DNA from: Actinomycetota bacterium
GTDB lineage: Bacteria > Actinomycetota > Acidimicrobiia > Acidimicrobiales > AC-14
NCBI GenBank assembly: GCA_040754375.1
Contig: JBFMCT010000026.1
Span: 1-47,858 of the forward strand
DNA: 47,858 nt
Reading direction: 5' to 3'
Position 1 is the stretch's first letter. Every line of letters begins with the position of its first letter. The notes beneath the pieces are model-generated. The model ran no database searches and was not told the DNA's origin. It worked only from the letters and a program-made list of their open reading frames with translations. Made by a program: the position numbers and the translations under genes. Shown piece by piece: positions 17,625 to 31,910 of this stretch.

Positions 17625-18983
17625 CTAGAGGCTGGCGATGAGCTTCTCGACCCGCTCGTCGTGGGACTTGAAGGGGTCCTTGCACAGCACGGTGCGCTGG
17701 GCCTGGTCGTTGAGCTTGAGGTGGACCCAGTCGACCGTGTAGTCGCGCTTGCGCTCCTTGGCCTTGCGGATGAACTCCCCCCGCAGCCTGGCCCTGGTCG
17801 TCTGCGGAGGAGTGTTCACGGCCTTGTCGATGGCCGCGTCGGTCACCACCCGTTCGAGCAGGCCGTGCTCCTGCATGCGGTAATAGAGGCCCCGGCGTCG
17901 GTTCACGTCGTGGTACTGGAGGTCGAGAAGGGCGACCTTGGGGCTGCTGAGGGTCAGTCCGTGGCGCTCCCGGTAGGCCTCGACCAGGCGGTGCTTGATG
18001 ACCCAGTCACACTCGCGGTCGAGCGAGAGCGGGTCGACCTCCAGTTTGGTGAGGCAGTGCTCCCACATCTTGAGGGCCTGCTCCTCCAGCGGGGACAGGC
18101 CCCGGGTCTCGGAGTAGCGCTTGGCCCGGGCCAGGTACTCCTGCTGGACCTGGATGGCGGTGAGCTCCCGCCCGTTCTCCAGGCGCACCTTGCGCGTGCA
18201 CGTGATGTCGTGGCTGATCTCGCGGATGGCCCGGATGGGGTTGTCCAGGGTCATGTCCCGCATGACCACCGACGGGTCCTCCAGCATTCGTAGCAGGATC
18301 GACGTGGCCCCCACCTTGAGGAAGGTGGCGTACTCGCTCATGTTGGAGTCACCCACGATCACGTGCAGCCGCCGGTAGCGCTCGGCATCGGCGTGGGGCT
18401 CGTCGCGGGTGTTGATGATGGGCCGGCTGCGGGTGGTGGCCGACGAGACGCCCTCCCAGATGTGCTCGGCCCGCTGGCTGATGCAGAAGGTGGCCCCCCG
18501 GGCGGTATTGAGCACCTTGCCGGCCCCGGCGTACACCTGGCGGGTGACGAAGAACGGGATCAGCACCTCGGCGTAATGGCCGAAGTCGTCGCGCCGGCTG
18601 GTGAGGTAGTTCTCGTGGCAGCCATAGGAGTTGCCGGCCGAGTCGGTGTTGTTCTTGAACAGGTAGACGATCCCCCGGATCCCCTCCTCCCGCAGGCGCT
18701 GCTCGGCGCTCGACAGGAGGCCTTCGAGGATCCTCTCCCCGGCCTTGTCGTGGGCCACCAGGTCCTCGATCGAGTCGCACTCGGGGGTGGCGTACTCGGG
18801 GTGGCTGCCCACGTCGAGGTAGAGGCGGGCACCGTTCTCGAGGAACACGTTGCTGCTGCGGCCCCACGACACGACCCGCCGGAACAGGTAGCGGGCCACC
18901 TCGTCGGGGCTGAGACGGCGCTGGCCGCGGAGGGTGCAGGTGACCCCGTACTCGTTCTCCAGGCCGAAGATGCGCCTCTCCAT
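17625..18983 (-). CDS. pafA: Pup-protein ligase PafA
   Basis: This 452-residue protein begins [20 protein letters not shown] and contains [18 protein letters not shown] (catalytic Asp), [20 protein letters not shown] and [20 protein letters not shown], and ends [15 protein letters not shown]-like with [18 protein letters not shown]. These match mycobacterial PafA almost block for block. It belongs to the glutamine synthetase-like fold and uses ATP to join the C-terminal glutamate of Pup to substrate lysines. The start is ATG 18981-18983; an in-frame extension upstream is the antisense of the small plus-strand gene. It is about 8 kb from prcA, with the transporter module between. Confidence 0.97.
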
Positions 18984-19023
18984 GGACGTCACGCTACCGT
19001 TGGTCCCGATGGAAGGAGCCCGG

Positions 19024-19329
19024 ATGGTGCGGTTGACGACCGTGGCCCATCCGTTCCACGCCCGCGTCATCGCCGCCCGGGTCGGTTGTGAGGGCATCGT
19101 GACCGAGCTCCGGGGGGCGGTCGAGGGGCCCTACCCCATGGGCGACATCGACGTGTACGTCAACGAGATCGACCTCCCAGTGGCCACCGAGCTCCTGTTG
19201 GCCGACGAGGTCGAGTCGGCCTTCGACGACGGGGACGACGACCCCCCCGAGGGCCCGCCCCACGAACTGTGGATCGTTCTCTGCGCCCTCTTCCTGCTGG
19301 CCGCCCTGCTCTTCTTCCGCCAGTTCTGA
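19024..19329 (+). CDS. DUF2007-like small protein with C-terminal membrane anchor
   Basis: This 101-residue protein, [20 protein letters not shown] then [20 protein letters not shown], resembles the putative signal-transducing DUF2007 fold (an alpha/beta domain that covers residues 1-65). An acidic linker ([10 protein letters not shown]) leads into a hydrophobic anchor, [17 protein letters not shown], near the C terminus. The AAGGAG ribosome site 5 bases before the ATG at 19024 decides the start. It is divergent from pafA (40 bp) and convergent with the ABC permease. Confidence 0.7.
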
Positions 19330-19336
19330 GCTCCCC

Positions 19337-20140
19337 TCAGCGTGGGGGGTGATGGCGGAAGAGGCGGGCCTCCAGGGCCGATACCAGGCCGCTGACGGCC
19401 AAGCTGAACAGCCCGGCCATCAGGATGAGGCCGTAGACCTGGCCGGCCAGGTAGCTGCGCTGGGCCACGGCCATCAGGGCCCCGATGCCGCCCACCCGGG
19501 TCAGGATCTCCACCAGCAGGGTGATCACCAGGGCGACGGGCGCGGCCACCCGCACCCCCACGAAGATCCACGGGGCGAGGGCCGGCAGCAACACCTTGCG
19601 GGCCGTGTCGAGGCGGCTCAGGTGGAGGGACCGGGCCGTGTCGACGAGTACTGGGTCGATGCCCCGGATACCCGCCCGGGTGTTGAGCAGGACCGACCAG
19701 ACGGCTGCGAACGTGACCACGGCTACCTTCATCTGCTGGTCGAAGCCCAACAGCAGGGCGGCAATGGGCACGACGGCCGCGGGCGGGATGGCCCGCAGGA
19801 ACTCGAAGGTCGGCCCCAGCGCCCGGTCGGCGGCCTTCGAGGTCCCGACGGCGACGCCCAGAGCCGTGCCCAGCACGGCGGCCACGGCCAGTCCGGTCCC
19901 GAAGGTCACCAGGGTCTCGCCCGCCGCCGGGACCAGCGCCCCGCTACGCCCCAGGTCCGCGAGCCCCGCCAACCACTGCGACGGCGTGGGGAAATAGGGG
20001 GACGAGGGGTCCCCGGCGACCTGCCACACGGCCAGGGCGGCGGCCAGGGGGACCAACCCCCGCAGTGGCGGGAACCCGCCCCGGCCCCGTCCATCCCTGG
20101 GCGCCGGCCCCGGGCGGGCCACGGTAGCGACGGCGTCCAC
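19337..20140 (-). CDS. ABC transporter permease (SsuC/TauC type), second of two
   Basis: This 267-residue protein has about six membrane segments and the cytoplasmic EAA-type loop ARSLHLSRLDTARKVLLPAL used to dock the ATPase. FLRAIPPAAVVPIAALLLGF is typical of the sulfonate/nitrate/taurine (BPD_transp_1) class. It starts at a GTG whose first base overlaps the TAG of the preceding permease gene (TAGTG), so it is coupled. It is the last gene of the operon. The two different permeases suggest a heterodimer, whereas SsuC and TauC usually act as homodimers. Confidence 0.88.
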   Translation of the reverse strand: MDAVATVARPGPAPRDGRGRGGFPPLRGLVPLAAALAVWQVAGDPSSPYFPTPSQWLAGLADLGRSGALVPAAGETLVTFGTGLAVAAVLGTALGVAVGTSKAADRALGPTFEFLRAIPPAAVVPIAALLLGFDQQMKVAVVTFAAVWSVLLNTRAGIRGIDPVLVDTARSLHLSRLDTARKVLLPALAPWIFVGVRVAAPVALVITLLVEILTRVGGIGALMAVAQRSYLAGQVYGLILMAGLFSLAVSGLVSALEARLFRHHPPR

Positions 20141-20997
20141 TACGCCCGTTCCCGGGGACCGGCCGACAGATGGGGAACGAGGCGGCCGGCAGCGGCCCCC
20201 AGGGCGGCATTGAGGGCGATCCCGGCCAGCCCGATGGTGGTCACGTAAGCGAACATCTGCTCGGGTTGGAGGGCATGCTGGGCGCGGACGAGCGCGTTAC
20301 CCAGTCCCCGGGGGTTGCCGATCATCTCGGCTACCACCGCCAACACCAGGGCCAGGGACATGGCCAGGCGCAGGCCCACGACGATCGACGGCATGGCCGC
20401 GGGCAGGACCACCTTGCGTACCGTCTCCAACCGACCGAGGCGGAGGGACCGGGCCACGTCGCCCAACTCCCGGGGCACGGACCGGACGCCTTCGATGGTG
20501 TTGACCAGCACGGTCCACGCGGCCACGTAGACGACCAGGGTCAGCTCCATCCGCAGCGAGAAGCCGAAGGCCAGCAGGGCCACCGGGACCAGGGTGATGG
20601 GCGGGACGGCCCTGACGACCTCGATGCTGGCCATCGACCAGCGCCACGCGCCCCTCGACAGGCCGAGCCACAGGCCCAGGGCCACCCCGAACACGGCCGC
20701 CACGGTCCAGCCCACCAGGGTCGACCGCAGCGTGTGCAGGGTGTGCCCGGCCAGGTCCCCCGAGGCGGCCAGGGGCCCGACGGCGCGGGCGATGGCCGAC
20801 GGTGCGGGCAGGTACTGGTAGTCGAGCGCCCCGGTACGCACGACCAGTTCCCACCCGCCGGCCAGGGCGGCCATGGTGGCCAGCCCGACGACGTTCACGC
20901 GGGCCCGAACGGCAAACCCGCGCGGGAACCGTGGGCGTTTCGCCCACGGTGCCCGCGCGGGTTTCGTGGGGTTGACCCGTCCCCCCCGGCTAACCAT
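20140..20997 (-). CDS. ABC transporter permease (SsuC/TauC type), first of two
   Basis: This 285-residue protein carries VVRAVPPITLVPVALLAFGF, the EAA-like loop ARSLRLGRLETVRKVVLPAA and about six membrane helices. The first 30 or so codons are Arg/Pro-rich and are encoded by the long hairpin at 20914-20964. Therefore the real start may be the GTG at 20898 (VNVVGLATMAALAGGWELVV), which would give 252 residues, a normal family length. The ATG at 20997 overlaps the ATPase stop by 8 bp, favouring coupling. Both starts are open. Confidence 0.82.
   Translation of the reverse strand: MVSRGGRVNPTKPARAPWAKRPRFPRGFAVRARVNVVGLATMAALAGGWELVVRTGALDYQYLPAPSAIARAVGPLAASGDLAGHTLHTLRSTLVGWTVAAVFGVALGLWLGLSRGAWRWSMASIEVVRAVPPITLVPVALLAFGFSLRMELTLVVYVAAWTVLVNTIEGVRSVPRELGDVARSLRLGRLETVRKVVLPAAMPSIVVGLRLAMSLALVLAVVAEMIGNPRGLGNALVRAQHALQPEQMFAYVTTIGLAGIALNAALGAAAGRLVPHLSAGPRERA
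20914..20964. other. 51-bp near-perfect hairpin at the ATPase/permease junction
   Basis: Two 24-base arms (20914-20937 and 20941-20964) are complementary except at one position and enclose a TTT loop. Each arm runs AAACCCGCGCGGG then CCGTGGGCG or its complement. It lies 26 bp after the ATPase stop in the direction of transcription and within the first codons of the longer permease reading frame. It could be an RNA-stability or attenuation hairpin, or a REP-like inserted palindrome. Confidence 0.75.
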
Positions 20998-21814
20998 CTC
21001 GGCCCACGATGCGGTCGTAGACGAGGCGGCGCAGGCGCAGGAACTCGGGGTGTTCCCTGGTGGTGAGCTGGTGGCGGGGCCGGGGCAGGTCGACGGCGAT
21101 GTCGTCGACGACCCGGCCCGGCGGCCCGCCCAGGACCACCACCCGGTCGCTCAGGTAGACGGCCTCGTCGATCTCGTGGGTGACGAACACGATGGTGGGC
21201 CGGGCCTGGTGGTGGACGGCCAGGAGCTGGTCCTGTAGGGACGCCTTGGTCATGGCGTCCAGCGCCCCGAAGGGCTCGTCCATGAGCAGGACGACCGACC
21301 GCATGGCCAGCGCCCGGGCCAGCTGTACCCGTTGCTGCATGCCGCCCGACAGCCGCCAGGGGTAGTCCTGGGCCCGGTCCTCGAGGCCGACCGTGGCCAG
21401 GGCCTCGCCCACCCGCCGCCTGAGCTCGGCCTTGGCCACCCGGCCCTCGATGCCGAGCGCGACGTTGCGCTCGACGGTGCGCCAGGGGAGCAGCGATGCC
21501 GCGTAGTTCTGGAAGACGAAGACCGCCCCCTCCGGAGGCCCGTCGACCGGGGCCCCCCGCATACGCACGACCGATCCCGGGGTGGGCTGCAACAGGCCGG
21601 CCAGCACCCGGAGCAGGGTCGTCTTGCCGGTCCCGGACCGGCCCATCACAGAGACGAGCTCACCTTCGTGCAGCTGGGTGGTGATCCCTTCGAGGACCTG
21701 CCGAGGGCCGTCGCTGGACTCCAAGTCGACACCCAAGTCAGTGCACTCGCACGCCGGGGGGCGCCGGCCCGCGCCGGGCCCCCCGGTGTCGGCCGCGGTC
21801 AGCAGCGCGTTCAT
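20990..21814 (-). CDS. ABC transporter ATP-binding protein (SsuB/TauB type)
   Basis: This 274-residue protein has Walker A GRSGTGKTT, the Q-loop VFQNYAASLLPWRT, the signature LSGGMQQRVQLARAL, Walker B VVLLMDEPFGALDA and the H-loop VTHEIDEAVYLSDRV. PWRTVERN is typical of the nitrate/sulfonate/taurine importers. The ATG at 21812-21814 overlaps the stop of the binding-protein gene as ATGA. A longer upstream frame is a shadow of that gene. It energises the two permeases downstream. Confidence 0.93.
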   Translation of the reverse strand: MNALLTAADTGGPGAGRRPPACECTDLGVDLESSDGPRQVLEGITTQLHEGELVSVMGRSGTGKTTLLRVLAGLLQPTPGSVVRMRGAPVDGPPEGAVFVFQNYAASLLPWRTVERNVALGIEGRVAKAELRRRVGEALATVGLEDRAQDYPWRLSGGMQQRVQLARALAMRSVVLLMDEPFGALDAMTKASLQDQLLAVHHQARPTIVFVTHEIDEAVYLSDRVVVLGGPPGRVVDDIAVDLPRPRHQLTTREHPEFLRLRRLVYDRIVGRDG

Positions 21815-22866
21815 GAGGCCAGCACGAGCTTGGCCGGGTCGACGGTGCCGCCGAACTGGCCGATGTCCTTGAGCACGGTGACCCACGTGGCCAGGTCGCG
21901 CGCCCTCACTTCGAAGTCGTAGGTGGGCAGGGGCACCGAGGCGGCCACCGGCGCGGGCATGCCGGTGTAGCCCTGGAGGACCTGGCGGGCGTCGGCCGGG
22001 TTCTGCTCGATGAACCGCTGCGCCTCCCGGAGGGAGGCGACGAACCGTCCGATGGCGTCGGTGTTGGCCCGGGCCCATGTCCCCTGGGCGATCCAGAAGT
22101 TGGTGGCCAGCGGGTCGGCGATCTGGGAGAAGGGGTCCCCGATGGACACAAACCCGTCGCGCTTGAGCTGGCTGGCGAACGGCTCCAGGGCCTGAACCGC
22201 GTCCACGCGGCCCGCCTTGAGCTGGTCGGGAAGGTTGGGCGAAGGGACCTCCACGCCCCCGATCGACGACGGGTCGACGCCGGTCTTCTTGGCCCAGAAC
22301 TGGACTCCGGCGTGGATGACGCCGCTGAGGGTGGGGCTCCCGATGGTCTTGCCCCGCAGGCCCGTGACATCGACGATGCCCGAGTCGGCGCTCACGATGA
22401 CCTGGACGAACGGGTTGGCCGCACTGCTCACCGTGTTGCCGGCCACCTGGACCACGTCGATCCCGGCCCCGCCCGCCCGAATGAGGTCGGTGGCCGTACC
22501 CAGGGCGATGTCGAACTGGCGGCCCAAGGTGGCGGGGACCTCGGAGATGTTGGCCGCCTGCTCCAGGGTGACCTCCAGGTTGTTGCGGGCGAAGATGCCC
22601 TGGACGTGGGCCACGTGCAGGGGCAGCACGGTCGTGGCCGGCACATAGGCCACCCGCAGCGCGGTCGGCCCAGCGGCGGTGGTGGGCGTGATGTCGGGGG
22701 CCTGGGCACTGCCGGTGCCTCCCCCGCCGCCGCAGGCCGTCGCCACCATCCCGAGCACGGCCACCGCGGCCATCGCCCGGGCTGGGCGCCCCGCCCGCCG
22801 GCTCCGAGCAGAGCCGCCGGCCGGACGGTGGTTGCCGAGCGTGGGGGACCTTCGGGACAGCATCAT
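21811..22866 (-). CDS. Substrate-binding lipoprotein of an SsuA/NMT1-type ABC importer
   Basis: This 351-residue protein has a twin-basic N terminus, a hydrophobic stretch and a lipobox ending VATAC with Cys45, so it should be a lipoprotein on the outer face of the membrane. The mature part has LRVAYVPATTVLPLHVAHVQ and GIFARNNLEVTLEQ, the hallmark start of the NMT1/SsuA fold, then VTGLRGKTIGSPTLSG. Substrates of this group include sulfonates, nitrate, taurine and thiamine precursors; which one is not visible. An AGGAGG site (complement 22874-22879) lies 7 bases before the ATG. It is the first gene of a four-gene operon. Confidence 0.92.
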   Translation of the reverse strand: MMLSRRSPTLGNHRPAGGSARSRRAGRPARAMAAVAVLGMVATACGGGGGTGSAQAPDITPTTAAGPTALRVAYVPATTVLPLHVAHVQGIFARNNLEVTLEQAANISEVPATLGRQFDIALGTATDLIRAGGAGIDVVQVAGNTVSSAANPFVQVIVSADSGIVDVTGLRGKTIGSPTLSGVIHAGVQFWAKKTGVDPSSIGGVEVPSPNLPDQLKAGRVDAVQALEPFASQLKRDGFVSIGDPFSQIADPLATNFWIAQGTWARANTDAIGRFVASLREAQRFIEQNPADARQVLQGYTGMPAPVAASVPLPTYDFEVRARDLATWVTVLKDIGQFGGTVDPAKLVLAS

Positions 22867-22873
22867 GTTCGTT

Positions 22874-22879
22874 CCTCCT
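22874..22879 (-). promoter_or_regulatory. Ribosome binding site of the binding-protein gene
   Basis: A perfect AGGAGG on the minus strand lies 7 bases before the ATG at 22866. It supports translation from the first of two adjacent ATG codons. Confidence 0.8.
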
Positions 22880-22913
22880 GGAGGGGACCTGTGATGGGCG
22901 TCACCGTCCCCCC

Positions 22914-22946
22914 GGCCGTTGCACGGCCGTTGCGCCCCGGTTGCGC
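22914..22946 (-). promoter_or_regulatory. Three direct 11-bp repeats, likely SARP binding site of the transporter operon
   Basis: Read on the minus strand the segment is GCGCAACCGGG, GCGCAACGGCC, GTGCAACGGCC: three consecutive units of exactly 11 bp with core GYGCAACSG. SARP proteins bind heptamer direct repeats spaced 11 bp (one helical turn) apart near the -35 region. The array ends 47 bp before the start codon of the binding-protein gene, and the regulator gene lies just upstream. The same motif is at 26228-26249. Confidence 0.8.
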
Positions 22947-22961
22947 GGGAAGGACCCTGTT

Positions 22962-25900
22962 TCAGCCCCGGGTGGCCAGGGCCCGGGCGAGGCGTCCCCC
23001 GCGAACGAGGGCCTCGCGCAGCTCAACCGGCAGGCCGGCCGCCACCCGCCCGAGCGCCTCCGCGGCGGCCGGGCCGGGCGCGACCTCGGCCACCAGCAGG
23101 TCAGAGCCCGTGGCGGCCGCCGCCTCGGCTGCTTCGGTCCTCCGGCCCAGGTGGCCGAGGGCCAGTGCTTCGTACTTGCGCGATCCCCGTTGGCGGGCCA
23201 GGTCGAGCAGCTCGTCGGCCTCGCCGTCGGCCGGCCCCAGCCGGCAGCGCACGTCCCTCAGCCTCAGCTCCGCTCGCCACCGGAAGGGGAGCCATCCCTC
23301 GAGCAGCGGCTCGGCCCGGGACACGAGTCCGTGGGCCTGGTCGGGGTCGCCAGCCTCCAGCGAACACTCGGCCAAGGCGAGCAGGGCGTGTAGCTCCTGC
23401 TCGACCTGAAGGGCCCCGGCGGCCACCTCGGCGGCTTCCTGGAGGGCCTGCTCGGCCAGGTCATGGGCCCGGCCTGGCTGCCCCAGCTCCCGCCACACCC
23501 ACGACAGGGTGGTGTCGGTACGGGCCCGGTAGAAGTGGACCTCGTACTGCTCCAGCAGCCGCCGCTTGCGTTCGAGAGCTCGTAGTGCCCCGCCGAAGTC
23601 GCCCAGATTGGCCCGGGCCAGGCCCGCGAAGAACAGCGTGCGCAGGAGAGGGCGGAACGCCCCGGTGCGGGCCGCCTCGGCGGCCGCCTGGTCGAGGGTG
23701 TGGCGGGCCTCGGCAAAGCGGTCGCCGTGCTCCAAGAGGGCGCCCAGGCAGCTCAGGGCCGAGGCTCGCGTGGCCCCGTCGGGCTCCCGGGCCAAAGCCG
23801 CTTCGTAGGCCTCGGCCGCCCCGGCGATGTCCCCCGCCCAGTGACGGGTCCGGCCCACGAGCACCAGGGCGCTGGGCAGCGCCACCGGGAAGGCGGCCGC
23901 CGACTCGGCCAGGTCGGCGGCCTGGGCCGCCAGTTCCCCGGCGGCCGCCGAGTCCCGCCCGTAGTAGGCCGTCCAGCCCAGACGTTCGAGGGCGGCCGCC
24001 TCGATCTCCTCGTCACCGAGCTCGCGGGCCGTAGCCAGCGCCGCCGCGTGGTCCCGCCGCGCGCCCTCGTAGTCGGCCAACTCCTCTCGCATCTGGCCCC
24101 GCCGCAGGCGGGCACGCGCGCCCGCCCTCAGGTCGCCGGCCTGGCCGGCGGCCTCGATGGCCTCCCCGAAGAGGCGCTCGGCGTCGCGGATGGCGAACGC
24201 CCGTACCGCCTGTTCGGCGGCTGCCGTCGAGGCTGCCCACGCCTCGGGCCATGCCCCCACCTGCCGGTGATGGGCGGCGGCCGCCTCCGGCCGGTCGGCC
24301 AGGCGGGCTGCGGCCCGGCGGTGGCGGCTGGCCCGCACCGGCTCGGGGGTCGATTCGTACAGGGCCTCGCGCAAGGCGCTGGCTGCGAACTGCAGGCGCG
24401 GCCCCTGGCTGGTGAGCAGGCCGGCGGCCAACGCCCGTTCTACGAGCCGGCTGGCCTCCTCCTCGTCGACCGAGGCCAGCTCGGCCACGAAGTCGAGGTC
24501 GAACGACGTGCCCAGCACGGCCGCCACCCTCAGGAAGTCCTCGACGTCGCGGCCCAACTGCCGGACGCGGTCGAGGACGGCCGCGGCCAGCGACGGTGGG
24601 GCCCCGTCCGTACCCGTCTGGTGCTGGCGGAGGGCCTCCACGACGAACTGGGCGTTGCCCCCGGTGGCATCGAGGAGCGCGCCTGGGTCGAGGTCCGGAC
24701 GACTGGCGGTCTCCGCCAGTTCCTGCACGGCCGCGAGGGTCAGCGGCCCCAGCTCCAGGAGGTGCGCGCCCGGCCCCAGAGCCTCGGCCACCTCGGGGGC
24801 GGCGCCGCCCACGGCCGTCCCCAGGACCAGGAGGGGCGCGCCCGCTCCCCGCCGGAGCAGGAACTGGAGGGCAGCCAGAGTCGAGTCGCCGGCGTGGTGC
24901 AGGTCGTCGAACACGGCCAGGACCGGGTTGTCGCGGGCCATGGACCTGACCACCGCAGCCACCGCCTGGAGCGACCGCCGGTACTCCAGCTCGGCGGTGC
25001 CCGGGTGCCCATCCTCCGGGGGAAGGATGGCAGCCAGGTCGGGAGCGAGCCGGGCCAGGACACCGGCGTGCTCGCCGGCCAGGGCGCGGGCCCGCTCGGG
25101 GGCCAGCCCGGCCAAGTGACCTTCGAGGGCGTCGACGACGGGCTGCAGGAACAGCGACCGCTCGGCCTGGTGGCAGGTCGCCCACAGGACCACTCCTCCG
25201 GCCGCCCGGGCCCTGTCAGCCAGCTCGGTGCTGATCGCCGTGCGGCCTGAACCGGACGGCCCGGCCACGACGACCGCCCCCGGGTGCCCGGCCACGGCCG
25301 CGGCCCACCTCTCGGTGAGCCGCTCCAGCTCCTGGTCGCGGCCCACCAGCCTCGTCGGGCCGGGGCGGGCCCCGGTGGCGGCCGGCCCCGGGGCGGGCCC
25401 AGGTCCTTCCGCGGACAGGTCCTCGCCCCGCAGCACGGCCAGGTATAGCTCTTCGGTCGCGCCGCTGGGGCTGACCCCCAGCTCCTCGGCCAGAAGGTCC
25501 CGCAGGCGGGTGTAGGCCTCCAAGGCCCGGGCCGAGTCCCCGCTGAGGTGGAGGGCGCGGATGGCGGCGCGGTGGGCCTCCTCGTCGAGGGGGCTGACCC
25601 GCACGGCCTGTTCGGCCAGGGCGAGGGCGGCGGCATGGTCGCCAACGGCCATCGTCGATTCCCACCCGGTGCGGTAGGCCCGGCGGGCCAGCGCCTCGGT
25701 GCGGCGGCGGCCGTCCTCGGCCCAGGCCGCGTAGGGGTAGTCCTCCAGGAAGGGCCCGGTCGCCAGGACGGCCAGTGCCCGAGCGACCGCCGACGACGCC
25801 AAGGACGGGCGCCCAGCCCGCTGCTGGGTGGCGGCCTCGGCCACCAGCGCCTCGACCTCGTCCACGTCCACGTCTAGGCCTGAGGTCTCGAAGCGGTAAC

Positions 25901-26195
25901 CGGTACGCCCCCCGGTGATGGCGTCCTGGCCGAGAACCGCCCGTAGGCGACTGACGAGGGACGAGACGTTCTGGGCGGCCCCCGGGGGCGGACCGCCCTC
26001 CCACAGGGCGTCGATCACCTCGTCGGCCGCCACCAGCGAGCCCCGGCGGGCGACGAGAAAGGCGGCCAGGGTGGTGGCCTTGCCGGCCGGTAGGCGGAGG
26101 GGTTGGTGCTGCCCGCCCAAGGTCAATCGGAACGGCCCGAGCAAGCCGGCCCGCAGCCGCGCCTCCCGCGCCCCCGCAAGACCCCCACCGGCCAT
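22962..26195 (-). CDS. SARP/AfsR-like transcriptional regulator (HTH-BTAD-ATPase-TPR)
   Basis: This 1077-residue protein has an OmpR-type winged helix at about 11-103 (LLGPFRLTLGG, QNVSSLVSRLRAVLG, GYRFE), a BTAD at about 110-255 (SGDSARALEAYTRLRDLLAE), a P-loop ATPase from about 285 with AGPSGSGRT at 311-319 and Walker B LAVFDDLHH at 426-434, and a C-terminal TPR-like region (about 640-1060). The Walker A lysine is replaced by Arg318, so ATP use may be altered. It is predicted to activate the flanking transporter and DsrE-like genes. The ATG at 26193-26195 precedes the first conserved residues. High-confidence family; its signal is unknown. Confidence 0.92.
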   Translation of the reverse strand: MAGGGLAGAREARLRAGLLGPFRLTLGGQHQPLRLPAGKATTLAAFLVARRGSLVAADEVIDALWEGGPPPGAAQNVSSLVSRLRAVLGQDAITGGRTGYRFETSGLDVDVDEVEALVAEAATQQRAGRPSLASSAVARALAVLATGPFLEDYPYAAWAEDGRRRTEALARRAYRTGWESTMAVGDHAAALALAEQAVRVSPLDEEAHRAAIRALHLSGDSARALEAYTRLRDLLAEELGVSPSGATEELYLAVLRGEDLSAEGPGPAPGPAATGARPGPTRLVGRDQELERLTERWAAAVAGHPGAVVVAGPSGSGRTAISTELADRARAAGGVVLWATCHQAERSLFLQPVVDALEGHLAGLAPERARALAGEHAGVLARLAPDLAAILPPEDGHPGTAELEYRRSLQAVAAVVRSMARDNPVLAVFDDLHHAGDSTLAALQFLLRRGAGAPLLVLGTAVGGAAPEVAEALGPGAHLLELGPLTLAAVQELAETASRPDLDPGALLDATGGNAQFVVEALRQHQTGTDGAPPSLAAAVLDRVRQLGRDVEDFLRVAAVLGTSFDLDFVAELASVDEEEASRLVERALAAGLLTSQGPRLQFAASALREALYESTPEPVRASRHRRAAARLADRPEAAAAHHRQVGAWPEAWAASTAAAEQAVRAFAIRDAERLFGEAIEAAGQAGDLRAGARARLRRGQMREELADYEGARRDHAAALATARELGDEEIEAAALERLGWTAYYGRDSAAAGELAAQAADLAESAAAFPVALPSALVLVGRTRHWAGDIAGAAEAYEAALAREPDGATRASALSCLGALLEHGDRFAEARHTLDQAAAEAARTGAFRPLLRTLFFAGLARANLGDFGGALRALERKRRLLEQYEVHFYRARTDTTLSWVWRELGQPGRAHDLAEQALQEAAEVAAGALQVEQELHALLALAECSLEAGDPDQAHGLVSRAEPLLEGWLPFRWRAELRLRDVRCRLGPADGEADELLDLARQRGSRKYEALALGHLGRRTEAAEAAAATGSDLLVAEVAPGPAAAEALGRVAAGLPVELREALVRGGRLARALATRG

Positions 26196-26227
26196 GGCGT
26201 GAAGCGTGCCACCTCCCGGACCGGGCC

Positions 26228-26249
26228 GTGCAACGGCTGTGCAACCGCG
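26228..26249 (+). promoter_or_regulatory. Two direct 11-bp repeats, likely SARP binding site of the DsrE-like gene
   Basis: GTGCAACGGCT and GTGCAACCGCG are adjacent 11-bp units with the same GYGCAACSG core as 22914-22946. They read toward the DsrE-like gene and end 50 bp before its ATG, almost the same distance as in the transporter promoter. They also lie 32 bp upstream of the regulator start on the other strand and so could mediate autoregulation. Confidence 0.7.
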
Positions 26250-26299
26250 CACCGGACGATGAGCCGGACCGCCCTGCCGAGGAGGCACATCAGACCGCC

Positions 26300-26659
26300 A
26301 TGAGACTCATCTTCTTCGTGTCCGTCGATCCCGCGACCGACGCCATGGCGGTCGCCAGTGCCTTCCGACTGGCGGCCACCGCGGCGGGCGCCGAGCTGGC
26401 GGCCGAAGTACGCCTGGCGGGCGCGGCCGTCCTGGTGGCCGACCCGGCCTACGCGGCCACCGTGCCCGACGCCGAGCGCCTGCGGGCCGAGATCGACGGG
26501 TCCGCCCGCAGCGGTGCGACGGTGTCCGTCTGCCCCCGCTCCGTCCAGGCCCGGGGTATCACCGCCGACCAGGTGGCCGCCCTAGGTGCCCGCCCCCGGC
26601 CCCTCACCGAGATCCTGACCGAGGTCGCAACCGGCCAGTCCTTCCTCGTCCACCTGTAG
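26300..26659 (+). CDS. DsrE/DsrF-like protein
   Basis: This 119-residue protein, MRLIFFVSVDPATDAMAVAS, ..GATVSVCPRSVQARGI.., has the small Rossmann-like DsrE fold, with a single conserved-looking cysteine (VCPRSVQARGI, about residue 80) where sulfur-relay members carry a functional Cys. Members move or sense sulfur. The ATG at 26300 has GAGGAGG 14 bases upstream, a rather long spacing. It is divergent from the SARP gene and convergent with prcA. Linked to an SsuABC-type transporter, it could serve organosulfur use, which is an inference. Confidence 0.78.
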   Translation: MRLIFFVSVDPATDAMAVASAFRLAATAAGAELAAEVRLAGAAVLVADPAYAATVPDAERLRAEIDGSARSGATVSVCPRSVQARGITADQVAALGARPRPLTEILTEVATGQSFLVHL

Positions 26660-26688
26660 GCGCGCTCGTTCTTGCACAACGCGGCTCG

Positions 26689-26712
26689 GGTCGGTGGGCC
26701 CGCAGGCCGACC
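26689..26712. terminator. Possible bidirectional terminator hairpin
   Basis: GGTCGG (26689-26694) pairs with CCGACC (26707-26712) across a 12-base GC-rich loop. It lies between the convergent stops of the DsrE-like gene (26659) and prcA (26715). There is no T-tract, so termination is only plausible. Confidence 0.4.
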
Positions 26713-26714
26713 GC

Positions 26715-27398
26715 TCAGGTGGACAGCAGGGTGGTGAGCTCAGGAGGGTCGAGGCGGCGGAAGGCCCGGCGGCCGTTGCCCCGGTCGAGGACGGCCACCT
26801 CCAGCTCCGACGGGGAGATCTGCCGGTCGGGGCCGGCCAGCGCACCCACGGCGGCCCGCACGGCCGGGCCCAGGGCCATGGCCTCGGTGTACGCCGCCTT
26901 GATGCGGTCCGAGATCGTGTCGGCGTCTCCCCCGAGCACGGTGAAGCGCTGTTCGTCGACCACCGTGCCGTCGTAGAGGATGTGGAAGAGCTGGTCGGTC
27001 CCCACCTCGAGGCCGACCTCGGCCACCAGGATCTCGACCTCGAGGGGCTTCATCTCGTGGGTGAAGATCTGGCCCAGGTGCTGGGCGTAGGCGTTGGCCA
27101 GCGAGCGGGCGTCGACGTCCTCGCGGGAGTACTGGTAGCCCTTCAGGTCAGCGATGCGCACCCCGGCGGTGCGCAGGCTGTCGAACTCGTTGTACTTGCC
27201 TACGCCCGCGAAGGCAATGCGGTCGTAGATCTCGCTGATCTTGTGGAGAGTGCGCGACGGGTTCTCGGCGGCCAGCAGCACTCCCCCCTCGTACACCACC
27301 GCCACCAGCGGGCGGCCCTTGGCGACGTTCTTGCGGGCGAAGTCGGCCCGGTCCTTCATCGCCTGCTCGGGCGACACGTAACCGAACGGCATCGTCAT
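26715..27398 (-). CDS. prcA: 20S proteasome alpha subunit PrcA
   Basis: This 227-residue protein starts [20 protein letters not shown], the typical actinobacterial alpha N terminus that gates the pore. It continues with [40 protein letters not shown] and a C-terminal [16 protein letters not shown]. It lacks the catalytic Thr, as expected. The ATG at 27398 overlaps the stop of prcB by ATGA; the second ATG at 27392 (MPFGYV) is an alternative. It forms the outer rings that receive substrates from Mpa. Confidence 0.97.
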
Positions 27399-28201
27399 CG
27401 GGGCTGGCCCTCCGCGCTCTTGCGGGCGATCAGCGCCTGGAAGCGCTCGGCCACCTCGGCGTCGCCCACCCGTTCGAAGCCGCCCTCGGTGATGGTCGCC
27501 ACTGTCGGGTAGATACCCCGCACGACATCAGGCCCCCCGGTGGCCGAGTCCTCGTCGGCCGCCTGGTAGAGCCCCTCGATGGCCAGCTCGATGGCCCCCT
27601 CGCGGTCCATGTCCTCGCGGTAGCCGAGCTTGATCGTCGTGCGGGCGTCGCGCCCGCCCGAGCCGGTGGCGTGGAAGTCGTCCTCCTCGTAGCGCCCGCC
27701 GGTGATGTCGTACTTGAAGATGCGGCCCGTGCGCCGGCGCAGGTCGTAGCCCGCGTAGATCGGGACCACGGCCAACCCCTCCATGGCCATCCCCAGGTTG
27801 GCCCGGACCATCTGGCCCAGCTTGTTGGCCTTGCCCTCGAGGCTGAGGGCCACACCCTCGACCTTTTCGTAGTGCTCCAGCTCGGTCTGGAACAGCTTGA
27901 CCATCTCGACGGCGAAGCCGGCCGCACCGGCGATCGACACGCCCGAGTGGCGGTCGGCGGGGTAGACCTTTTCGATAGCCCGGTGGGCGATGCTGTAGCC
28001 CTCGGTGGCCCGCCTGTCACCGGCCATCACGACGCCGTCGGCGTACCGGATGGCGACAATGGTCGTGCCGTGGGGGACGTGGACGGCCGCGGATGGCCCC
28101 GGAGGCCCGGGCGCCACCGGCGACGCCGCGCCGGAGCGGCGCAACAACTCGGAGAAGCTCGGGCCCGGGTCCTGCCCGGCCCCGAAGACGGGAAGGCTCA
28201 T
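27395..28201 (-). CDS. prcB: 20S proteasome beta subunit PrcB
   Basis: This 268-residue protein has a 45-residue propeptide followed by [20 protein letters not shown], so autoprocessing should expose catalytic Thr46 after Gly45. Other conserved blocks are [19 protein letters not shown] and [16 protein letters not shown]. It forms the inner proteolytic rings. It is followed by prcA with a 4-bp overlap and preceded by pup with a 154-bp gap that is long for this operon. Confidence 0.97.
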
Positions 28202-28317
28202 AGACCCCGCAGGCTAACTGCCCCGGCGGTGCCCTCCCTGCGGCCCGCCCCCTGGGGCCGGCCCCCGCCAACCGGCCCGGCGCGCCCTGAGGTCGGCCAG
28301 CCGCGGGCATAGTCGAT

Positions 28318-28337
28318 ATAGGGGGGGGTGCGCCTAT
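28318..28337 (-). other. Short hairpin with poly-C loop between pup and prcB
   Basis: On the minus strand ATAGG and CCTAT form a 5-bp stem around a loop rich in C; a run of eight C spans the loop and 3' arm. It lies about 20 bp after the pup stop in the direction of transcription. A perfect palindrome GCAGCGCTGC sits between it and pup. It could slow or partially stop transcription between pup and the proteasome genes. Confidence 0.35.
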
Positions 28338-28355
28338 CGGGGCTAGCAGCGCTGC

Positions 28356-28550
28356 CTATTGGCCGCCCTTCTGAACGTATGATCTTACGAACTCCTCAGC
28401 ATTGTCCTCGAGGACTTCGTCTATCTCGTCCAGTAGGTCGTCGAGTTCGGCCTTGAGCTTCTCGCCCTGGCGGGCGGGGGCGGTGACGGCCTCCTGCACC
28501 TCGTCGGTGCGGGCGGGGGCCTGCTTCCTCTTCTGCTCTCGTTCTGCCAT
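28356..28550 (-). CDS. pup: Prokaryotic ubiquitin-like protein Pup
   Basis: This 64-residue protein is hydrophilic and predicted to be mostly disordered. It has the Mpa-binding helix region LKAELDDLLDEIDEVLEDNA and ends FVRSYVQKGGQ. The terminal Gln must be deamidated by Dop to Glu before PafA can ligate it. It has no cysteine or aromatic core. It lies 12 bp after dop and ahead of prcB. Confidence 0.97.
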   Translation of the reverse strand: MAEREQKRKQAPARTDEVQEAVTAPARQGEKLKAELDDLLDEIDEVLEDNAEEFVRSYVQKGGQ

Positions 28551-28562
28551 CTCGTGGTCCTC

Positions 28563-30053
28563 CTAGGAACCCAGCGCTTCAAGCAGCTGCGCCGGGGTGT
28601 CGCAGGCTGCCAACAGAGTATCGACGTGTGCGGCCGTTCCTTTTAGGGGTTCCATCATCGGCACCCGGCGCAGCGGGTCGCTGCCCAGGTCGAACACCAG
28701 CGAGTCCCAGTTGGCGGCCGAGATCGAGGGGGCCCAGCGTTGCAGGCACTTGCCCCGGAACCAGGCCCGGGTGGTCCTGGGGGGCTCGGTCATGGCTGCT
28801 ACCACGTCGGCCTCGTCGACCAGTCGCTCCACATTGAGCCGGGCGAACAGCGACCGGCCGGGCCGCACGTCGTGGTACTGGAGGTCGAGGGCGGCCAGGC
28901 GGGCGTCGCCCCAGCCCAGGTCGTGGCGCTGGCGGTAGGCGTCGACCAGTTGGTACTTGGCCACCCAGTCGAGCTGGCCGGCCAGGGTCATGGGGTCAGA
29001 CTCCAAAGCGGCCAGCACGTCCTCCCAGCGACGCAGGACGTCGCGGCCGACCTCCTCGCCCACGGCGTCCAGCCCCCGGCTCTCAGCCCACTTGCGGGCC
29101 CGGTCGAGCAACTCCCACTGGACCTCGACGGCCGTCATGCGCCGGCCGTCGGCCATCTCCAGGGGCCGAGCCAGCGACAGGTCGTAGGACACCTGGCGGT
29201 GGGTCGGCACCGGGTGGGCGAGGACCAGGTCTTCGCCCCCGAGGTCGTCGTCCTCGATCATGGCCAGCACGATGGCCGTGGTGCCCACCTTGAGGTAGGT
29301 CGACACCTCGGACATGTTGGCGTCGCCCACGATCACGTGCAGCCGCCGGTACTGCTGGGAGTCGGCGTGGGGCTCGTCGCGGGTGTTGACCAGGGGCCGC
29401 TTGAGCGTGGTCTCGAGCCCGACCTCCTCCTCGAAGAACTCGGCCCGCTGGCTGATCTGGAAGCGGATGTCAGCCGCCCCCGAGCCCGGGGCCTCGCTGC
29501 CCACCTTGCCCGCCCCGGCGAACACCTGGCGGGTGACGAAGTGGGCCGTCACCTGCTGGGCGATGCGGGTGAAGGGGACGGCCCGGTCCATCAGGTAGTT
29601 CTCGTGGCAGCCGTAGGAGTTGCCCTTGCGGTCGGAGTTGTTCTTGTAGACGACCACCTCCTGGCCCGCGGGCAAGAAGTCGGAGGCGGCCTCGATGGAG
29701 CGGGCCAAGATCCGCTCGCCCGCCTTGTCCCAGGTGACAATCTCCAGGGCGTCCGAGCACTCGGGGGTGGAGTACTCGGGGTGGGCGTGGTCCACGTAGT
29801 AGCGGGCGCCGTTGGTCAGCACGGCGTTGACCAGGTGGGTCTCGACCTCGGGGGCCATGGACCCCTCCCGGGCGAAGCCCCGGGCATCGCGGCCCGGGCT
29901 TTCGTCCTCGAAGTCCCAGTCGACCTTGCGGGCCAGCCGCGACACGTAGGCGTTTATGAGCAGCGACGACGCCGCGATCGGGTTGGACTCGGCCGCCCCC
30001 CGCAGCACGATCCCGTACTCCGTCTCGATGCCGCACACCTTCCGGATGGCCAC
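28563..30053 (-). CDS. dop: Pup deamidase/depupylase Dop
   Basis: This 496-residue protein starts at a GTG (30051-30053) as VAIRKVCGIETEYGIVLRGA. It shares the glutamine synthetase-like fold with PafA, with YYVDHAHPEYSTPECSDAL (catalytic Asp), [20 protein letters not shown] and [20 protein letters not shown]. The early segment AAESNPIAASSLLINAYVSR contains the Dop-specific loop that distinguishes it from PafA. It converts the Pup C-terminal Gln to Glu and removes Pup from substrates. The order mpa-dop-pup-prcB-prcA is the standard one. Confidence 0.96.
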   Translation of the reverse strand: MAIRKVCGIETEYGIVLRGAAESNPIAASSLLINAYVSRLARKVDWDFEDESPGRDARGFAREGSMAPEVETHLVNAVLTNGARYYVDHAHPEYSTPECSDALEIVTWDKAGERILARSIEAASDFLPAGQEVVVYKNNSDRKGNSYGCHENYLMDRAVPFTRIAQQVTAHFVTRQVFAGAGKVGSEAPGSGAADIRFQISQRAEFFEEEVGLETTLKRPLVNTRDEPHADSQQYRRLHVIVGDANMSEVSTYLKVGTTAIVLAMIEDDDLGGEDLVLAHPVPTHRQVSYDLSLARPLEMADGRRMTAVEVQWELLDRARKWAESRGLDAVGEEVGRDVLRRWEDVLAALESDPMTLAGQLDWVAKYQLVDAYRQRHDLGWGDARLAALDLQYHDVRPGRSLFARLNVERLVDEADVVAAMTEPPRTTRAWFRGKCLQRWAPSISAANWDSLVFDLGSDPLRRVPMMEPLKGTAAHVDTLLAACDTPAQLLEALGS

Positions 30054-30137
30054 AAGCTGACCCTACCCCCTGCCCATGCCAACCGGTGCCCGGCCGCCCG
30101 TGCCATGACGGCCCCGGGCTGACCCGCCCGGCCCGCC

Positions 30138-31910
30138 CTACAGGTACTGGCCTGTGCCCACCCGTTCGATGGCGCGACCGCCCTTGGCTTCCTTGCCCTC
30201 GGACATGAGGGTGCGGACGTAGACGATGCGCTCGCCTTTCTTGCCCGAGATCTTGGCCCAGTCGTCGGGGTTGGTGGTGTTGGGCAGGTCCTCGTGCTCT
30301 TTGTACTCCTGCTTGATCGAGGCCAGCAGGTCCGACACCCGTATGCCCCGGCCCTCACCGGCGATCGTCCGCTTGATGGCCAGCTTCTTGGCCCGGCGGA
30401 CGATGTTCTCGACCATGGCCCCCGAGGAGAAGTCCTTGTAGAACAGGATCTCCTTGTCGCCGTTCTGGTAGGTGACCTCGAGGAACCGGTTGTCATCGCC
30501 CACGTCGTACATCTCGACGACGGTGCGCTCGATCATGGCGTCGACCGCCTTCTGGCGGTCGCCACCGCCGAGCGACTCGACCTCGGCCTCGTCGAGGGGC
30601 AGGTCGGCGGTCAGGTAGCGGCTGAAGATCTGGCGGGCAGCGGCCTCGTTGGGCCGCTCGATCTTGATCTTCACGTCGAGGCGGCCGGGACGCAGGATGG
30701 CCGGGTCGATGAGGTCCTCGCGGTTGGAGGCGCCGATCACGATCACGTTCTTGAGGGTCTCGACGCCGTCGATCTCGGCCAGGAGCTGGGGGACGATCGT
30801 GGCCTCCATGTCCGAGGAGATGCCCGTGCCCCGGGTGCGGAACAGCGAGTCCATCTCGTCGAAGAACACGATGACGGGCACGCCCTCCTCGCTCTTCTCG
30901 CGCGCCCGCTGGAACACGAGCCGGATCTGGCGCTCGGTCTCGCCCACGTACTTGTTGAGCAGCTCAGGGCCCTTGATGTTGAGAAAGTAGCTGCGGGCCG
31001 ACTTGTTGCCGCTGACCTCGCTGACCTTCTTGGCCAGGGAGTTGGCCACCGCCTTGGCGATGAGGGTCTTGCCGCAGCCCGGGGGACCGTAGAGCAGGAT
31101 GCCCTTGGGGGCCGGCAGCTTGTGCTCGGCGAACAGGTCCTGGTGGAGGAAGGGCAGCTCGACGGCATCGGTGATCTGCTCGATCTGGTCGTCGAGGCCG
31201 CCCACGTCTTCGTAGGACACGTCGGGGACCTCTTCGAGGACCAGCTCCTCGACCTCGGGGCGGGGCAGCTTCTCGAGCAGCAGGCCGCTGCGGGCGTCGA
31301 GCAGCATGGTGTCGCCCGCCCGGAGCTTCTCGCCCAGCAGGCCGTCGGACAGCTCGACGACCCGCTCCTCGTCGGCCCGGCCCACGATCATGGCCCGGGT
31401 GCCGTCCTCGAGCAGCTCCTTGAGGGTGACGACTTCGCCCTGGACCTCGCCGGCGCGGGCCATCACCACGTTGAGGGACTCGTTGAGCACGACCTCCTGG
31501 CCCCGGTGGAGCTCGTCGTCCTCCAGGGCCGGGTGCAGGGCGACGCGCATCTTGCGGCCGCCCGAGAACACGTCGACCGTGCCGTCGTCGTTGCGGCCCA
31601 GGAGCGTGCCGTAGGCCGACGGCGGCTGGGTGAGCTTCTCGACCTCCTGGCGGAGCTCGGCGATGTGGTCGCGCGCCTCCCGCAGGGTGTAGGTGAGCTT
31701 CTCGTTTTGGGCTACGGCCTGGGCCAGCTGGCCCTTGGTCTCCAGCAGCCGCTCTTCGAGGGTGCGGACCCGCTTGGGGGCGTCCTGGAGCTTGCGGCGG
31801 AGGTTGACCACCTCCTCCTCCAGGGTCTTGACCTGCTCGAGCATGACGCCGACCTGCTGCTCGTAGGCGGACAGGCGGCGCTCGTACTCCGAGCTCGATG
31901 AAGGGCTCAC
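30138..31910 (-). CDS. mpa: Proteasome-activating AAA ATPase (ARC/Mpa)
   Basis: This 590-residue protein has an N-terminal coiled coil (about 8-95) that binds Pup, two OB-like domains (about 97-225), and an AAA domain with Walker A GPPGCGKT at 275-282 and Walker B FFDEMDS at 349-355. The C terminus GTGQYL has the penultimate Tyr that docks into the proteasome. It starts at a GTG (31908-31910). It is divergent from the ferredoxin gene with a 199-bp gap. Confidence 0.97.

Follow-up and report, generated by a model that had tools for sequence, protein, structure and literature searches.

Eleven-base-pair direct repeats as predicted operators of an AfsR-like SARP regulator and its small uptake regulon in an Acidimicrobiales genome

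The DNA studied here is a contig stretch of 47,858 nucleotides (nt), referred to as the window, from a genome of 3,510,701 bases (G000). It carries two arrays of 11-base-pair (bp) direct repeats that flank a gene for a Streptomyces antibiotic regulatory protein (SARP). Judged from the sequence, these arrays very probably represent the operators of this AfsR-like large SARP, which is predicted to bind them as the activator of a small uptake regulon. In G000 the predicted regulon would comprise an NMT1/SsuA-like transporter operon, a DsrE-like gene and, on contig C11, one more gene of unassigned function. The kind of system is already known, and a limited literature search over titles and the starts of abstracts, which is no proof of absence, returned no published description of the regulator clade, the operator sequence or the regulon. 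The SARPs of the cited papers are, in the parts of these papers available to us, mostly switches of Streptomyces antibiotic clusters, with AfsR also reaching phosphate and nitrogen genes; here the SARP promoter layout, including the register of the -10 element, is predicted for an uptake regulon outside Streptomyces. The predictions for operator, start sites and base-reading residues are precise enough to be tested with purified protein and short DNA.

Three GYGCAACSG units precede the transporter operon on the minus strand (GCGCAACCG, GCGCAACGG and GTGCAACGG; 9-mers at 22938-22946, 22927-22935 and 22916-22924), and two precede the DsrE-like gene on the plus strand (GTGCAACGG and GTGCAACCG; 26228-26236 and 26239-26247), with a step of exactly 11 bp in both arrays, which confirms the positions given in the initial annotation. 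As described there, the regulator gene, an open reading frame with BTAD and AAA ATPase domains, lies between the two arrays (Table 1), and each array points at its gene. The distance of 47–50 bp between array end and start codon did not hold, as we measured 49 nt for the transporter operon (ATG at 22866) and 52 nt for the DsrE-like gene (ATG at 26300).

The exact pair GYGCAACSG-N2-GYGCAACSG was found at three places in the genome, all of them inside these two arrays. Such a genome scan had been proposed together with the reservation that the motif might be frequent and randomly placed, which is not so for exact pairs, as they are confined to the two promoters. The number of single 9-mers is unremarkable, with seven in the window, five of them array units (shuffle mean 3.69; 6 of 100 shuffles reach 7). 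Only exact pairs carry the signal, and loose matches do not: with up to three mismatches, the count of the paired pattern in the window is an unremarkable 4 (shuffle mean 1.84; 9 of 100 shuffles reach 4), and with up to two mismatches its genome count of 4 equals that of the reversed-pattern control. With up to two mismatches allowed, a composite motif derived from the boxes likewise stays at control level both in G000 (13 vs 15) and in four genomes taken together (85 vs 109), so that the regulon cannot be extended by loose scanning. One further G000 site stands out in the loose scan, C11:30938 with one mismatch.

Each array is followed by a -10-like hexamer (Table 1), which in the transporter promoter begins 9 nt after the last GTGCAAC and in the DsrE promoter keeps the same spacing to the array, and transcription would accordingly start at about 22896 (transporter) and 26267 (DsrE). 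We assessed this geometry on 13 distinct exact boxes (from 14 matches) of G000 and the relatives G003, G006 and G008, all picked without regard to a -10 element. An A stands at +28 from the box start in 13 of 13 boxes, and a hexamer of the form NANNNT starts at column 27 in 10 of 13 (background 1.9%), the remaining three hexamers ending in A; examples at this column are GACGAT, GACGGT, GATGCT and TACAAA. At each other offset from 18 to 44, NANNNT was seen in no box or in one. The binomial tail for the column-27 hexamer is 1.3e-15, uncorrected for the hexamer first having been spotted by eye.

This register resembles that of known SARP promoters, in which, according to the accessible part of PMC10936776, repeats are separated by 11 or 22 bp, with 8 bp from the 3' repeat to the -10 element; here the distance is 9 nt from GTGCAAC and 8 nt if the heptamer is TGCAACG. 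In the same part of that paper the afs box extends from -40 to -19, and AfsR activates from there. With the -10 element of that promoter placed at -12 to -7, as the scaffold described there suggests, AfsR and the window regulator would share two 11-bp direct repeats in the same register, with 6 nt from repeat end to -10 if the unit is CGTGCAACGGC. A protein sitting just upstream of the -10 element could also block RNA polymerase, and the sign of control is itself a prediction; the boxes, however, occupy the position of the AfsR box, from which activation is described (PMC10936776, same part), and their -10 hexamers are poor, as expected of activator-dependent promoters, which makes a repressor acting at the boxes very improbable.

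Taking the column-27 hexamer as the -10 element, transcription is expected from column 39, and in four of 15 boxes examined an ATG begins exactly there (three in G003:C78, L083 3178+, 6668+ and 3150-; one in G397, L077 2163-). An ATG at the predicted +1 fits leaderless transcription, and the other 11 boxes would have leaders or later starts. For the sequence logo, 23 rows were reduced to 18 by letting the 3' pair stand for the triple array and leaving out L084, L085, L086 and L089, three of which lack the A at +28, while L085 has the A and no final T; three more sites found with the -10 element in the pattern (L105, L106, L035) brought the set to 21. The exclusion of L085 was probably wrong, because this site precedes a VOC gene 63% identical to a target in G006.

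Recurrence of the box was studied after the regulator had been sought in 60 relatives, 45 of which gave a match (E 0.001), and across the order in 397 genomes, of which 18 reached E 1e-50. The exact composite pattern RYGCAAC-N4-RYGCAAC-NS, chosen without downstream sequence, gave 14 matches in those four genomes whose regulators are closest (G000 3, G003 4, G006 3, G008 4) and a single match, without A at +28, in nine other genomes compared (G013). Homologous genes recur behind these boxes and behind near-exact ones. DsrE genes follow them in G000, G003 and G008, and DUF983 proteins in G003, G006 and G008. In the latter three genomes boxes also precede a binding protein, which Pfam assigns to SBP_bac_5 in G003 and which looks alike in G006 and G008 when judged by eye, and a protein that is permease-like by eye, its first 150 residues having no Pfam match. 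NMT1 genes follow a box in G000 and in two copies in G008, one of them at C63, on a contig other than that of the regulator; the box before the second G008 copy (L155) was found by weight matrix. Further boxes precede genes for a VOC protein, for a protein of 201 amino acids whose first 150 residues match no Pfam family, and for a small protein with an HHD motif, the last in G000 (C11:30938), G003, G120 and G397; at the corresponding small-protein gene in G006:C79 the box is present with the -10-like hexamer shifted by one base. 

The predicted regulon also opens a way into a conserved family of small uncharacterised proteins. Its five sequences (L166, L167, L168, L169, L170) are about 95–125 amino acids long, and share invariant C, F, HHD and TW besides other positions, and of the two members scanned with Pfam neither gave a match; a box stands before their genes in five genomes, one of them shifted. 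Around the regulator of G087, the weight matrix returned three weaker boxes (L106 5177-, 5563- and 7159-) with the same -10-like GACCAT and three genes with starts alike by eye, where a target was perhaps duplicated together with its operator.

A maximum-likelihood tree of 15 regulators separates ten from five with a split support of 100/100 (midpoint root; the program cautioned about the long branch of G013 and about the composition in two rows). Eight genomes account for the ten, and the box is present in seven of these; nine of the ten regulators belong to box-bearing genomes. Of the base-reading residues given for AfsR in the available part of PMC10936776, T88 and R92, the position of the former is occupied by S or T throughout the ten and by V throughout the five, and R92 is kept in all 15. 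As an observation of its own, the regulator of G018, the genome of the VOC gene mentioned above (G018:C28:16093, L059/L085; box-like site 48 bp before the gene), falls on the opposite side of the split, among the five.

Across the 397 genomes of the order, the exact composite motif occurs in 14 (three sites for the reversed control). It is present in five of seven genomes with a close regulator (E <= 1e-100; 12 sites) and in nine of 390 others (9 sites), with a Fisher p of 5e-7 that is partly circular, the motif having been defined on four of the five genomes; independent confirmations of the association come from G120 and G397 and, at one mismatch, from G087. Similar direct repeats are also read by response regulators of the OmpR/PhoB type, such as PhoP-, GlnR- and MtrA-like proteins, and the SARP gene might then be a bystander. 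AfsR and PhoP have been reported on the same afsS repeats, as stated in the accessible part of PMC10972967. Yet the boxes track the SARP clade in the partly circular comparison above, and no receiver domain was found among 30 window reading frames scanned, some of them perhaps spurious; we regard a response regulator as the owner of the repeats as improbable. Chance repeats in GC-rich intergenic DNA would agree with a motif that drops to control level once mismatches are allowed, but the exact pairs are unique in the genome, the A at +28 is found in every box of the geometry set, and the boxes recur before homologous genes in other genera. On the grounds of exact pairs, -10 spacing and recurrence, a chance origin was rejected, its probability being practically nil.

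Several observations weigh against the arrays being operators of the window regulator. A matrix scan of the window gave no box directed at the regulator gene itself. On the ten-regulator side of the tree, G050 has two regulator fragments and no exact composite box, and G087 likewise has no exact composite box and one with a single mismatch. Only some target homologues carry a box (DUF983 3/10, DsrE 3/8, NMT1 3/5, small protein 4/5 at exact spacing), where one of the two NMT1 homologues without box is cut by its contig end; these homologue loci were scanned with the matrix on both strands. Conversely, an exact composite box occurs once in each of nine genomes that lack a close regulator, and several such sites match weaker training sites in matrix score (L128 26.5, L131 25.8, L134 22.9). 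When DsrE, small protein, DUF983, regulator and VOC were sought by tblastn near 54 pattern-picked loci, the VOC gene in G018 was the sole homologue outside the clade genomes. The high-scoring box-like sites L120, L128, L131, L134 and L139, whose genomes lack a close regulator, may belong to other SARPs or be due to chance; the background sample of the first matrix scan included loci picked for box-like matches, and its maximum of 19.5 is not a clean chance value.

A further point on this side is a paralogue with 59% identity in the same genome (G000:C11:37269-40460), which groups with the window regulator in the tree split and has a nearly identical recognition helix (NVASLVSRLRRV vs NVSSLVSRLRAV). 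The boxes could be read mainly by this protein or by both SARPs, a reading that overlaps the one preferred here and changes only the acting SARP. Some 6 kb separate the paralogue from the third gene with a box (C11:30938); the window regulator, on the other hand, is flanked by both exact arrays, and the boxes adjoin a single clade member in G008 and in G003 (the G003 copy consisting of two contig-end fragments), and we consider a role of the paralogue as main or joint reader of the boxes possible but rather unlikely. The stretches around the paralogues in G000:C11 (L035) and G006:C79 (L038) contain no exact array, L035 having the imperfect C11:30938 site.

The assignment of the arrays to the window regulator as a SARP, as originally proposed, is supported by the rarity of exact pairs, by their recurrence near relatives of the regulator and before homologous targets, and by the AfsR-like -10 register, and it agrees with the make-up of the protein. 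Pfam places the BTAD domain (PF03704) at residues 109-255 with 91.5 bits (cut-off 22.1) and the AAA_16 ATPase behind it at residues 282-457 with 84 bits (cut-off 32.6). Trans_reg_C matches with 22.1 bits, under its cut-off of 26.2; the alignments to EmbR and AfsR cross the N-terminal OmpR-type winged helix from residues 9 and 12, respectively, and the recognition helix aligns. For the C-terminal part, Pfam gave no TPR family at E 0.001 and NCBIfam a weak MalT match at 790-966, below cut-off. In the PDB sequence search with the N-terminal part, EmbR of Mycobacterium tuberculosis scored best (2fez, residues 9-265, E 3.3e-18), followed by three AfsR entries (E 3.9e-15 to 2.5e-14). EmbR differs in ending with an FHA domain, according to the available part of PMC10936776, where the window regulator has an ATPase. 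With 87.2 bits against a cut-off of 1430 for the AfsR equivalog NF053617, the regulator is not an AfsR orthologue by this measure. Its one named relative, with 42% identity, comes from an uncultured Acidimicrobiales bacterium.

AfsR of Streptomyces coelicolor, acting at the afs box of afsS, nevertheless has the order of BTAD and ATPase in common with the window regulator, in which R92 is kept and T88 is replaced by S. In our own comparison, seven of nine defined positions of the AfsR repeat CGTT(T/C)ATCGNN, as given in the accessible part of PMC10972967, agree with the new consensus, while the box core differs (GCAAC vs T(T/C)ATC of AfsR). Unlike AfsR, the window regulator has predicted targets among uptake and small uncharacterised genes, its equivalog score lies below the cut-off, and its Walker A motif reads GPSGSGRT, with R in place of K. 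ActII-ORF4, DnrI and PimR also use heptamer direct repeats, classically in 11-bp units and in some cases three of them (PMC10972967 and PMC5930380, both as far as accessible); they differ in their heptamers, where these are given, and their genes form part of antibiotic clusters, whereas the window regulator has a Pup-ligase-family gene on one side and proteasome genes on the other. An Arg-for-Lys Walker A was seen in four of the 15 regulators, namely in the window protein and in its counterparts from G120, G397 and G050 (L105, L077, L042), the other eleven having K, and it falls into two tree lineages, not one.

We infer binding, activation, gating by ATP and a physiological signal as follows. 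A pair of SARP protomers, joined perhaps by a third at the transporter promoter, would sit side by side on the 11-bp direct repeats [C]GTGCAACGGC, directly upstream of a weak -10 element that is often GACNNT or GATGCT, and the bound SARP may recruit or hold RNA polymerase, in the way shown for AfsR, at promoters that would otherwise be nearly silent. As described for AfsR in the accessible part of PMC10936776, ATPase and C-terminal parts inhibit the protein and ATP binding relieves the inhibition; the corresponding parts may gate activation here in the same way. In G008 the regulator may activate itself, because DsrE and regulator genes share one direction behind one box, an arrangement distinct from G000 and G003, in which the regulator is divergent from DsrE and has no box directed at it. 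Judging from the targets, the regulon more probably serves solute uptake than antibiotic synthesis. More tentatively, and leaning slightly away from it, we envisage that a large-SARP lineage, probably of the Acidimicrobiales, controls through its own operator GTGCAACGGC a conserved non-antibiotic regulon of small size that covers solute uptake, DsrE, DUF983 and small HHD-motif proteins, partly with leaderless mRNAs and with an ATP switch altered by the Lys-to-Arg Walker A in some members, the window's included.

Table 1. Arrays, promoter elements and genes of the window.
Feature	Position	Strand	Remarks
Three-unit array, 11-bp units	22914..22946	minus	before transporter operon
Two-unit array, 11-bp units	26228..26249	plus	before DsrE-like gene
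-10-like hexamer GACGGT	22903..22908	minus	transporter promoter
-10-like hexamer GACGAT	26255..26260	plus	DsrE promoter
SARP-type regulator	22962..26195	minus	1077 amino acids from chosen ATG; winged helix + BTAD + AAA_16 ATPase + long C-terminal part (Pfam, PDB sequence search, NCBIfam)
NMT1/SsuA-like substrate-binding protein	21811..22866	minus	first gene of predicted target operon; SsuA family below its NCBIfam cut-off
ABC transporter ATPase	20990..21811	minus	best NCBIfam: nitrate, SaoA, taurine types, all below cut-off
ABC transporter permease	20140..20997	minus	profile matches (Pfam/NCBIfam)
ABC transporter permease	19337..20140	minus	profile matches (Pfam/NCBIfam)
DsrE-family protein	26300..26659	plus	119 amino acids; second predicted target; PF02635, E 4.8e-08
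Pup-ligase-family gene	17625-19097		flanks cassette
Two proteasome subunit genes	26715-28201		follow cassette
Pup-ligase-family gene	28563-30053		beyond proteasome subunits
Proteasomal ATPase	30138-31910		

Homologues of the predicted targets occur apart from the boxes as well. A second NMT1 protein of G000 (G000:C10:77296-78264, L154) is 72% identical to that of the window and has no box upstream. A DsrE homologue without box in G003 (G003:C12:3304-3639, L148), 61% identical to the window's, adjoins a different BTAD-type protein; DsrE and BTAD regulators may pair repeatedly.

The cassette of regulator, transporter and DsrE genes sits within a Pup-proteasome gene cluster (window 17625-31910). 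As the window Pup ligase (17625-19097) and a proteasome subunit (26715-27398) had no match in the 14 loci L035-L048, this placing may be particular to the genome. Near 28360, between the proteasome subunit genes and the second Pup-ligase-family gene, an open reading frame ending in KGGQ resembles Pup by eye.

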